Assembly: GCA_945834545.1 (NCBI GenBank)
Contig: CAMAHO010000002.1
Coordinates: 1 to 37,269, forward strand
DNA: 37,269 nucleotides
Reading direction: 5' to 3'
DNA from: an uncultured Lachnospiraceae bacterium
GTDB taxonomy: Bacteria; Bacillota; Clostridia; Lachnospirales; Lachnospiraceae
In this document: piece after piece, positions 12,627 through 16,130 of the stretch
Numbering within the stretch: the first letter of the stretch is position 1
Layout of the letters: every line of letters starts with the position of its first letter
The notes under the pieces: generated by a model
Database searches by the model: none
Told to the model about the DNA's origin: nothing
Seen by the model: the letters and a program-made list of their open reading frames with translations, nothing else
Program-made: the position numbers and the translations under genes

Positions 12627-12722
12627 TAAAATAATATATAAGATAATACCTGCGGATTTCTCCGTACTTTGTACTCTCGCAATCCTATCAAATATTCGCA
12701 TATAGTATGCTCATATTTGAGC

Positions 12723-12783
12723 GGGTCCCAAGGTCTGTTACCCACATTTGAGTAAGCTCATGTGGGTAAAGACCTTTTGACCC
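12723..12783 (-). terminator. Long hairpin downstream of glnA
   Basis: GGGTCccAAGGTCTgTTACCCACATtTGA gtaagc TCAtGTGGGTAAaGACCTTttGACCC begins 5 nt past the glnA stop; no clear U-tract, so it could be a processing/stability hairpin or a REP-type palindrome instead. Confidence 0.5.
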
Positions 12784-12788
12784 TGGTA

Positions 12789-14882
12789 TTATACATAGAA
12801 CAGTATCTTTGCATAATCCGGATAAGGAAGTACATCCTCAGGAAGCAGTTCCTCTGCCTCATCTGCAACCTTGCGAAGCTCTTCCATCTTAGCCAGAATG
12901 GTTGCCTGATAGTACTTAGCAGCTACCAGCGCCTCTGTCAGACCTTCTGCCGTTTCAATCTCTCCTGCCAGCTCACTTACCAGTTCAGAAATGCTGTCAT
13001 ACTGACCGGAAAGCTTTGTCAAAAGACGAACCTCAGCATTTACCGAAAGGCTGTCACACACTGCCTTCTTCTTGGAAACAGAAGTAGCGATCTGATCCAT
13101 ATACTCCATAAGAGCCGGTAAGAACTGCTTATTGACCATATCTACCATTGTCTTAGCTTCAATATGAATGGTCTTGGTATAGTTCTCTAAGAGAATCTCA
13201 TATCTGGAGTAAATCTCACTCTCCGTAAAGATATGATGCTTTGTAAAAAGCTTCTTATTCTTATCTGCCACAAACACAGGAAGTACATCCGGTGTGGACT
13301 TGTAGTTGTATAAGCCTCTCTTTTCTGCCTCTGCTACCCACTCATCGGTATAGCCGTTTCCGTTAAAGATAACCTTCTTGTGCTCTGCGATTCTGTCCTT
13401 CAATAGGCTGTGAATCTTGTCAGTCATCTGGTCAGCAGCTACATCCTTAAGCTCTTCATAAATCTTAGACAACTCTTCTGCCACTGCTGTATTTAACACC
13501 ACATTGGGTCCGGATACAGAAAGGGAAGAGCCCAGGGAACGAAACTCGAACTTATTACCGGTAAATGCAAAAGGTGAAGTTCTGTTACGATCCGTTGTAT
13601 CCTTAAAGAAATGAGGAAGTACACTGGCGCCGATATCCATAGTCACCTTTTCCTTATTTCCAAAGAAAGTGTCATTCTCAATGGACTTTAGTACCTCGGT
13701 AAGCTCATCTCCCAGGAATACGGAAATAATAGCAGGAGGTGCTTCGTTGGCTCCCAGTCTGTGGTCGTTTCCGGCAGATGCAACCGACAATCTCATCAAA
13801 TCTGCATAATTGTCAACTGCCGAGATAACTGCCATGAGGAATACCAGGAACTGTGTATTCTCTGCTGGAGTCTTGCCGGGGTCTAAGAGGTTTACCCCGG
13901 TATCCGTAGTCATGGACCAGTTGTTGTGCTTTCCGGAACCGTTGATTCCTGCGAAAGGCTTTTCGTGAAGGAGACATACAAAGCCGTGTTTGTCTGCTAC
14001 CTTTCTCATCACATCCATTGTCAACTGGTTGTGGTCCACTGCCACATTGGTGGTATCAAATACAGGTGCTAGCTCGTGCTGAGCAGGTGCTACCTCGTTG
14101 TGTTTTGTCTTAGCGGGAATTCCCAGCTTCCAAAGCTCCTCATCCAGGTCGTGCATATAAGCGGAAACTCTGGGCTTTAAGGCTCCGAAATAATGGTCCT
14201 CCATTTCCTGTCCCTTAGGAGGCTTCGCACCAAGCAAGGTTCTGCCGGTGAAAATCAAATCCATTCTCTTCTTGAAGTCTTCCTTATCTACCAGGAAGTA
14301 CTCCTGCTCAGGACCTACTGTGGTAGCAACACTCTTCACCCCTGTGTTGCCCAACAGTCCAAGCACCTTAACTGCCTCCTTGTTTAGTGCCTCCATAGAA
14401 CGAAGGAGAGGAGTTTTCTTATCCAGTGCTTCACCACTGTAGGAACAGAAGGCTGTGGGTATGTAAAGCGTTCCATCCTTGATGAAGGCCGGTGAAGTAG
14501 GATCCCAGGCTGTATATCCTCTGGCTTCAAAAGTTGCTCGAAGTCCTCCTGAAGGGAAACTGGAAGCATCCGGTTCACCCTTAACCAATTCCTTTCCGGA
14601 GAATTCCATGATTACCTCGCCGTTTCCTACGGGATTGATAAAGCTGTCGTGCTTCTCAGCAGTGAAACCGGTCATAGGCTGGAACCAGTGAGTGAAATGA
14701 GTTGCCCCATGCTCTACTGCCCATTCCTTCATAGCGATTGCTACTGCATTGGCTACATCCAATTCCAAATGAGAATTGGTATCAATTGTCTTTCTAAGTG
14801 CTTTATAAATATCCTTAGGGAGCTTTTCACGCATTACTCTGTCGTTAAACACCAAGCTTCCATACATTTCAGGTACTGTCAT
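12789..14882 (-). CDS. glnA: Glutamine synthetase type III
   Basis: 697 aa from MTVPEMYGSL; GSIII motifs GPEQEYFLVD, KHNEVAPAQHELAPVFDTTNVAVDHNQL, GINGSGKHNNWS. The ORF-track N-extension overlaps the leader. Confidence 0.95.
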   Translation of the reverse strand: MTVPEMYGSLVFNDRVMREKLPKDIYKALRKTIDTNSHLELDVANAVAIAMKEWAVEHGATHFTHWFQPMTGFTAEKHDSFINPVGNGEVIMEFSGKELVKGEPDASSFPSGGLRATFEARGYTAWDPTSPAFIKDGTLYIPTAFCSYSGEALDKKTPLLRSMEALNKEAVKVLGLLGNTGVKSVATTVGPEQEYFLVDKEDFKKRMDLIFTGRTLLGAKPPKGQEMEDHYFGALKPRVSAYMHDLDEELWKLGIPAKTKHNEVAPAQHELAPVFDTTNVAVDHNQLTMDVMRKVADKHGFVCLLHEKPFAGINGSGKHNNWSMTTDTGVNLLDPGKTPAENTQFLVFLMAVISAVDNYADLMRLSVASAGNDHRLGANEAPPAIISVFLGDELTEVLKSIENDTFFGNKEKVTMDIGASVLPHFFKDTTDRNRTSPFAFTGNKFEFRSLGSSLSVSGPNVVLNTAVAEELSKIYEELKDVAADQMTDKIHSLLKDRIAEHKKVIFNGNGYTDEWVAEAEKRGLYNYKSTPDVLPVFVADKNKKLFTKHHIFTESEIYSRYEILLENYTKTIHIEAKTMVDMVNKQFLPALMEYMDQIATSVSKKKAVCDSLSVNAEVRLLTKLSGQYDSISELVSELAGEIETAEGLTEALVAAKYYQATILAKMEELRKVADEAEELLPEDVLPYPDYAKILFYV

Positions 14883-14906
14883 CTCTCTTTCTCCTTTCTC
14901 ACTTTT

Positions 14907-14948
14907 TATGAGCGCCCTTAAGTTGCGCATCCTTAAGAACCACTCATA
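14907..14948 (-). promoter_or_regulatory. Second stem-loop in the glnA leader
   Basis: Minus strand TATGAG tggtt CTTAAG gatgcgcaa CTTAAG ggcg CTCATA between the first hairpin and the start codon. Confidence 0.45.
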
Positions 14949-15658: not shown

Positions 15659-15736
15659 TGTCGTTCACCTCCAAGGACACTATACCAGTTTTTCACTATT
15701 TTGTCTTTCCCATAAACAGCGAATTGGTCTCAGGCT

Positions 15737-16116
15737 GGTCCTGGGGACGCTAAAAAGTGGCTTTTTTACTGTCCCCGGTGGTCCTTTTGTCAGCAGAGTT
15801 AGCGCAGGATAAAGGCAGCCCTCCATAGATGGCTTTCCATCAATTCACGGAGAATGCTTCGTTTTTCTTAATACTTTGCCCATAACCAGAGAGCCTTCGA
15901 CACGATGTCGAAGGCAGTCGCCCCTGAGCCAGGACGGCGAATGGGCGACGGTCTCGTACGATGCCAAAAATGAAATCAAAGTATTTAGAAAAACCAGCAT
16001 TCGCAGTGTGATGGAAAGCCACCTATGGAGGGTTGCCTTACCCCCGCGCTAACTCACAGACATAAAAAGGACCACCGGGGACAGTAAAAAAGCCACTTTT
16101 TAGCGTCCCCAGGACC
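15737..16116. repeat. Composite palindromic element A (~380 bp, conserved core 15847-16010)
   Basis: Left arm ggtcctggggacgctaaaaagtggcttttttactgtccccggtggtcctttt is the reverse complement of the right arm aaaaggaccaccggggacagtaaaaaagccactttttagcgtccccaggacc; pairing continues inward (ccctccatagatggctttccatc / gatggaaagccacctatggaggg). Confidence 0.9.
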
Positions 16117-16130
16117 ACCTAAAACAAAAG

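Follow-up and report, generated by a model that had tools for sequence, protein, structure and literature searches.

A TwoAYGGAY (RF01731) core in a Lachnospiraceae genome, apparently carried by a REPIN-like palindrome that is probably mobile

The stretch of DNA analysed here (the window) comprises the first 37,269 nucleotides of contig CAMAHO010000002.1 from an uncultured Lachnospiraceae bacterium (assembly GCA_945834545.1), and it contains two related palindromes, element A and element B. Element A is read here, with a probability of roughly one in two, as one copy of a non-autonomous mobile palindrome that resembles a REP doublet forming a hairpin (REPIN, where REP stands for repetitive extragenic palindromic sequence) or a miniature inverted-repeat transposable element (MITE), and that carries as its head a TwoAYGGAY structure, a candidate CsrA-binding RNA. 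The core itself is already known; what appears to be new is that TwoAYGGAY copies ride on such a palindrome. The reading builds on the identity of the core, the dispersal of its copies, covariation, the insertion of a whole unit with its arms in a related genome, the REP-like tips, and a gene for a REP-associated tyrosine transposase (RAYT) with matching repeats in the same genome. From these we infer that the RAYT may be the mover, that a single-stranded intermediate may be involved and that the head may act as a CsrA decoy. In the following, G numbers denote the genomes compared (G000 is the present one), L numbers loci of elements or repeats, and C numbers contigs. The parts of the two elements, all on the forward strand, are:

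15736 to 16117, forward: element A, whole palindromic unit, 382 nt, with boundaries set by the inverted repeats (fold z -25.6)
15736 to 15788, forward: left outer arm, REP-like type 1 repeat (GGTCCTGGGGACG...GTCCCCGGTGGTCC), 100% complementary to 16065-16117
15796 to 15842, forward: left inner arm, copy-specific sequence not common to other copies, 87% complementary to 16009-16055
15845 to 16009, forward: core, TwoAYGGAY RNA RF01731 (cmscan, 121.4 bits)
15868 to 15870, forward: TTA on the left side of the conserved CTTA/TTAG mismatch of the lower stem, facing 15985-15987 and with U.U at its centre (by inspection)
15893 to 15915, forward: head hairpin 1 (GCCTTCGACA-CGA-TGTCGAAGGC), with the GGA of AYGGAY gone from the loop
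15917 to 15949, forward: head hairpin 2, loop A-GGAC, with GGA retained at 15932-15934
16009 to 16055, forward: right inner arm, copy-specific sequence (from inverted-repeat analysis)
16065 to 16117, forward: right outer arm, inverted REP-like type 1 repeat (from inverted-repeat analysis)
21969 to 22380, forward: element B, whole palindrome, with tandem type 2 REP-like repeats (GCAACATTAGGGACGGAGTTTTTTGTTGC) in its arms and its core at 22094-22257

The core of element A matches TwoAYGGAY over model positions 1-168, and its 121.4 bits lie well above the family threshold of 43 bits. The core of element B is likewise a full-length match (120.2 bits, forward strand), and the homology of element A to the family by covariance model is not in doubt. 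Between themselves the two cores form a direct repeat of 148 nt at 86% identity (15847-15994 and 22096-22243), which bears out the common core that a preliminary description of this DNA had noticed. That description had also not recognised the core as a described class, while allowing that it might be catalogued, and had listed a match to a known Rfam family among two findings that would speak against novelty; the Rfam comparison returned RF01731 at 121 bits, and by this criterion the core is not a new class. TwoAYGGAY was reported by Weinberg et al. (2010), who considered it likely to be an RNA and unlikely to be cis-regulatory (PMC2864571). Element A has the two head hairpins and the lower stem with tandem G.A-type mismatches of this family. 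It differs from the family model in that one AYGGAY loop lacks GGA in this genome, and in that the model stops at the core while the stem here extends into arms of about 25-400 nt. Neither mobility nor REP-like tips were mentioned in the descriptions of the family found in the literature.

The arms make element A strongly palindromic. The 53-nt outer arms are perfectly complementary and the 47-nt inner arms 87% complementary, while the arms of element B (21969-22091 with 22258-22380, 123 nt) are 98% complementary. Folded as RNA, element A reaches -256.9 kcal/mol, compared with -108 +/- 6 in shuffled sequences (z -25.6), and as DNA it gives a z of -27.5, so the self-complementarity described earlier stands. 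The description of the arms as unrelated holds only in part. In both elements the outermost arms include a (T)GGGGACG...TTTTTT repeat and fall into two REP-like families dispersed in this genome, and the copy-specific part is confined to the 25-60 nt that separate the REP-like tip from the core. In that part the arm match at 20-40 nt from the core has a median of 0.80 within a copy, compared with 0.45 between copies and 0.50 for shuffled arms.

The genome contains 12 full cores and one fragment in an assembly of 2.18 Mb that is 85% complete; the 11 cores that were compared are 79-94% identical to each other. Every copy with both ends resolved terminates in one of two REP-like repeats, either type 1 (GGTGGTCCTGGGGACG...GTCCCCGGTGGTCC), as in element A, or type 2 (GCAACATTGGGGACGGGGTTTTTTGTTGC), as in element B. 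Type 1 repeats are also found free of any core, as single hairpins, in tandem runs (L180, L186) and as inverted pairs about 100 bp apart (L173, L174, L187), and contig ends frequently fall within them. The two inverted REP-like sequences of a unit fold into one hairpin, as in a REPIN. Three cores (L004-L006) lie within 2.5 kb at G000:C50:3049-5529, two of which belong to a tandem duplication of 1157 bp that is identical over 2 kb; this is possibly an assembly artefact or a duplication driven by the palindromes.

Near the start of the window lies a gene whose product has as its best NCBIfam match the REP-associated tyrosine transposase NF047646, at 75 bits and thus slightly below the cut-off of 80 bits. 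It is surrounded by type 2 repeats:

1655 to 1764, forward: type 2 REP-like repeats adjoining the RAYT gene, as in the arms of element B (from repeat matching)
1762 to 2547, reverse: RAYT gene, 261 amino acids (Pfam Y1_Tnp 3.9e-13; NF047646 4.3e-21, 75 bits)
2660 to 2857, forward: type 2 REP-like repeats at the opposite flank of the RAYT gene (direct at 2660-2693, inverted at 2825-2857)

Over 27-33 nt, the sequences beside the RAYT gene match arm regions of three element loci (L004, L007, L010) at 96-100%. L007 and L010, the two copies with type 2 repeats, are each other's closest relatives in the core tree (support 0.89), as would be expected if core and tip spread together.

That the arms belong to the inserted unit is shown by comparison of related genomes. 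At L145 in G267 a palindrome of 679 bp lies just downstream of a terminator, between this and the next gene, while the orthologous sites in G188, G231 and G369 have the genes and the terminator and lack the palindrome. GGCC is found at both L145 junctions and once in the empty site of G188. By parsimony, L145 is an insertion of the whole palindrome, and since three relatives have empty sites without its arms, these came in together with the element. GGCC likewise borders L146, a copy that G188 lacks. Copying of the arms from the target flank had been suggested by L146, where host sequence GTTTTGGGCCT reappears inverted on the opposite side; this origin is contradicted by L145 and was rejected, and the inverted host sequence at L146 seems better explained by a palindromic target centred on GGCC. 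The arms as a fast-evolving RNA helix were rejected as well. Over the arms at large G.T and C.A mismatches are equal (409 and 431), and the orthologous copies L141 and L147 in the sibling species G188 and G267 share 95.8% identity and differ little in their arms, which shows that the arms evolve slowly and do not diverge quickly by substitution.

Some further pairs of sites were seen in these relatives. At the uppP-cysE locus L222 (G267) and L223 (G188) have the same insertion and arms with different core subtypes, which suggests conversion between copies; at uppP a head-less remnant of the element is found in G231 (L226), and the full head is kept in G369 (L232). L139 (G188) and L300 (G267) occupy the same intergenic site with the element in opposite orientation, and the outer arms are missing in G267.

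RF01731 was present in 22 of the 296 genomes of the order, 18 of them above the Rfam cut-off, and mostly in several copies; in G206 a DNA search with an element-bearing query listed 39 matches. Sixteen of the carrier genomes belong to the same family, and in every one of them the core stands at the head of a palindrome whose arms fall in the size range given above. In genus g9 the conserved unit is longer, extending over about 470 nt up to a GAAT...TTTTCTWAAT motif, with copy-specific paired arms beyond it. Covariation in an alignment of 19 such units was judged against shuffled alignments and against alignments with the pairing partner slid: 87 of 113 consensus pairs have double compensatory changes, compared with 55 in shuffles and 24-38 in the slid controls, and pairing holds in 93.3% of cells (73% in shuffles, 36-43% with the partner slid). 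On the AYGGAY strand of the g9 unit G.T exceeds A.C, by 61 to 25 cells and by 28 to 17 distinct types. The structure is real at the level of nucleic acid, and the form under selection may be RNA or single-stranded DNA. The earlier proposal that structure is kept while sequence changes is supported by the g9 pairs; in the copy-specific arms the symmetric mismatches and nearly unchanged orthologues give no sign of selection on RNA pairing.

Conserved internal mismatches, including the U.U in CTTA/TTAG of the lower stem, recur across nearly all genera, and the direct TTA repeat within the palindrome is found in the core of almost every related genome. A target-site duplication left by an inner insert was rejected as the sole explanation of this repeat because both the mismatch and the sequence beyond it are conserved across genera.

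Binding of CsrA by TwoAYGGAY was proposed by Gardner and Eldai (PMC4333381). A csrA gene is found in all 22 carrier genomes and in 16 of 21 non-carriers (Fisher p 0.02, phylogeny not corrected); that of the present genome is at G000:C11:20034-20192. Like the CsrA-sequestering RNAs of the CsrB/RsmZ type (clan CL00106), TwoAYGGAY has GGA motifs in hairpin loops. It differs from these in having no more than two loops, of which one is degenerate here, and in being multi-copy, apparently mobile DNA. The AYGGAY loops of element A are derivatives one base shorter than the motif, ACG-AT and A-GGAC. In loops read from minimum-energy folds, both retain GGA in 76 of 97 copies outside this genome.

If element A is indeed a mobile palindrome with a TwoAYGGAY head, the unit would move as a single strand folded into a hairpin, whose tips would be recognised, in this genome presumably by the RAYT-type Y1 transposase. 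New copies would settle in intergenic space, where several resolved sites adjoin a transcription terminator. Upon read-through transcription the head might then display two GGA hairpin loops able to bind CsrA, as the published proposal and the weak csrA association suggest, and copies bound in this way could serve as CsrA decoys. A wider picture is put forward only tentatively and is rather doubtful: REPIN-like palindromes in gut-type Clostridia might spread CsrA-binding heads, so that selfish copy number sets the CsrA decoy level, the same head having been adopted by different tip and transposase systems across genera.

Several observations weigh against the mobile-palindrome reading. A RAYT-type Y1 transposase was not found in most other carrier genomes, no pattern of co-occurrence of RAYT and element was found across 42 genomes, and where both occur elsewhere (G223, G243, G035, G099) the RAYT flanks do not match the arms. 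For the type 1 tips, those of element A, no transposase was found in the 85%-complete assembly. Neither repeat type has the GTAG foot of classical REPs, and the element is for this reason termed REPIN-like and not a classical REPIN. For the GGCC duplication there is one clean case, at L145, and a probable one at L146; a further copy, which G188 has and G267 lacks, lies at a site that does not align cleanly. As to CsrA, the association between carriers and csrA is weak because most relatives have csrA and phylogeny was ignored. Moreover, GGA is kept solely in hairpin 2 and lost from the other loop in all 12 copies of this genome, which is one GGA loop where Csr-Rsm RNAs are expected to have at least two. 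As a hypothesis, CsrA binding is fair for the TwoAYGGAY family and weaker for this genome, where a decoy role is probably weakened because only one loop keeps GGA.

Among known systems, the element resembles REPINs in being an inverted REP doublet with a spacer that is variable and yet paired, in a genome where a RAYT gene is flanked by one of the two repeats (type 2, that of element B). For REPINs, Bertels and Rainey (2011) noted that the spacer varies in sequence and keeps its pairing, with compensatory changes. The REPIN spacer is, however, short (71 bp between the 16-mers of GI), whereas here there is a conserved structured core of 165 nt; the repeats here are without GTAG and RAYT is absent from many other carriers. 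The CGTC-tagged palindromic repeats also have CGTC beside a palindrome and form inverted dimers, but have stems and loops of other sizes; Di Nocera et al. (2013) found no transposase gene with CGTC repeats at its flanks, and Firmicutes are absent from their list. Like a MITE the element is small, lacks an open reading frame of its own, and has terminal inverted repeats and a possible 4-bp target duplication (GGCC). It departs from MITEs in that the terminal inverted repeats are copy-specific and not family-wide, and in that no partner DDE transposase was identified for the palindrome.

The same data may be read as selfish DNA and nothing else, the hairpin being kept for single-strand transposition and by templated correction of the arms at the DNA level, and the AYGGAY loops serving transposase recognition unrelated to CsrA or to RNA. 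The equality of G.T and C.A among the arm mismatches (409 v 431), the insertion as a whole unit, the occurrence of copies in every gene orientation, and the loss of GGA from one loop in 12 of 12 copies here with the remaining fold intact would all fit this. It is nevertheless considered somewhat unlikely. In the extended g9 structure G.T is commoner than A.C along the AYGGAY strand (61 cells against 25, although these come down to only 28 and 17 distinct types), most copies elsewhere keep GGA in both loops, and the internal loops and mismatches, such as the U.U in CTTA/TTAG, are long-lived although arm correction should erase neutral ones. A family of trans-acting small RNA genes that sequester CsrA, duplicated by ordinary means and with arms that extend the RNA structure and have no part in mobility, would agree with the proposal of Gardner and Eldai (PMC4333381), with the presence of csrA in all carriers and with the strong covariation. 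It is an improbable explanation, set against the sharp insertion of a whole palindrome with GGCC at both junctions, REP-like tips common to coreless repeats and to the RAYT locus, and a genomic context that is not constant.

Slightly more improbable again is that the core inserts into the loops of pre-existing hairpins such as terminators and REPs, the unrelated arms then being the two sides of the original target hairpin. Here all copies with both ends resolved do lie inside REP-like pairs that also exist empty, and another structured element in related genomes sits within terminator stems, but L145 contradicts the idea, its arms being missing from three empty sites and the insertion lying after the terminator hairpin and not inside it. 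Very improbable indeed is a cis-regulatory RNA of the neighbouring genes, for which the Rfam type label Cis-reg is the one point in favour: no conserved gene partner was seen, since adjacent genes and orientations differ between copies, Weinberg et al. (PMC2864571) judged such a role improbable, and carB of the sister genome G319 is without the element. Copies occur in every gene orientation and the neighbour genes vary from copy to copy without a constant context. Flanking genes common to different genera (for instance carB at L003 and L089) were considered and set aside, their coincidences being, by a back-of-envelope estimate, of about the number expected by chance. Counted over all loci, tandem flanking genes have the AYGGAY strand in antisense in 41 cases and in sense in 19, a tally from longest open frames that is too rough to lean on.

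If the mobile-palindrome reading is correct, a family labelled cis-regulatory in Rfam, for which a CsrA role has only been proposed, would appear as the head of a mobile palindrome, and this status would change how TwoAYGGAY copies should be annotated and counted. It would also provide a clean system for asking whether a mobile element can carry a decoy for a regulatory protein, and it raises the question of how a transposable unit acquires closely matched terminal arms that differ between copies.

Other palindromes were met in the same comparisons. The incomplete sister genome G319 gave no match to the TwoAYGGAY family and its carB has no element; a different palindrome of about 200 nt (L193), without an Rfam match, occupies the same intergenic space downstream of this gene. 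In G041, a genome of another genus, L150 and L151 also end in repeats, GGGGACGG, and no Y1 transposase was found in that genome. Genus g9 has a second structured palindrome of about 90 nt (GTTACGGCTACAAGC...GCTTG) that often lies within a terminator stem and has no Rfam match (L231, L238, L239 and L244, downstream of uppP); it also varies between G188 and G267 where these are collinear (G188:C12 / G267:C1:235001-435000). Yet another palindromic element, the third (CATGCTCCCGGAGGCC...), was seen at L251 (about 1330-1450, reverse complement) and at a site in G188:C12, with unrelated paired arms between the copies. Within the window itself, a Clostridiales-1 RNA (RF01699, 118 bits) is located at 12644-12791 on the reverse strand, directly downstream of the glutamine synthetase III gene at 12789-14930.
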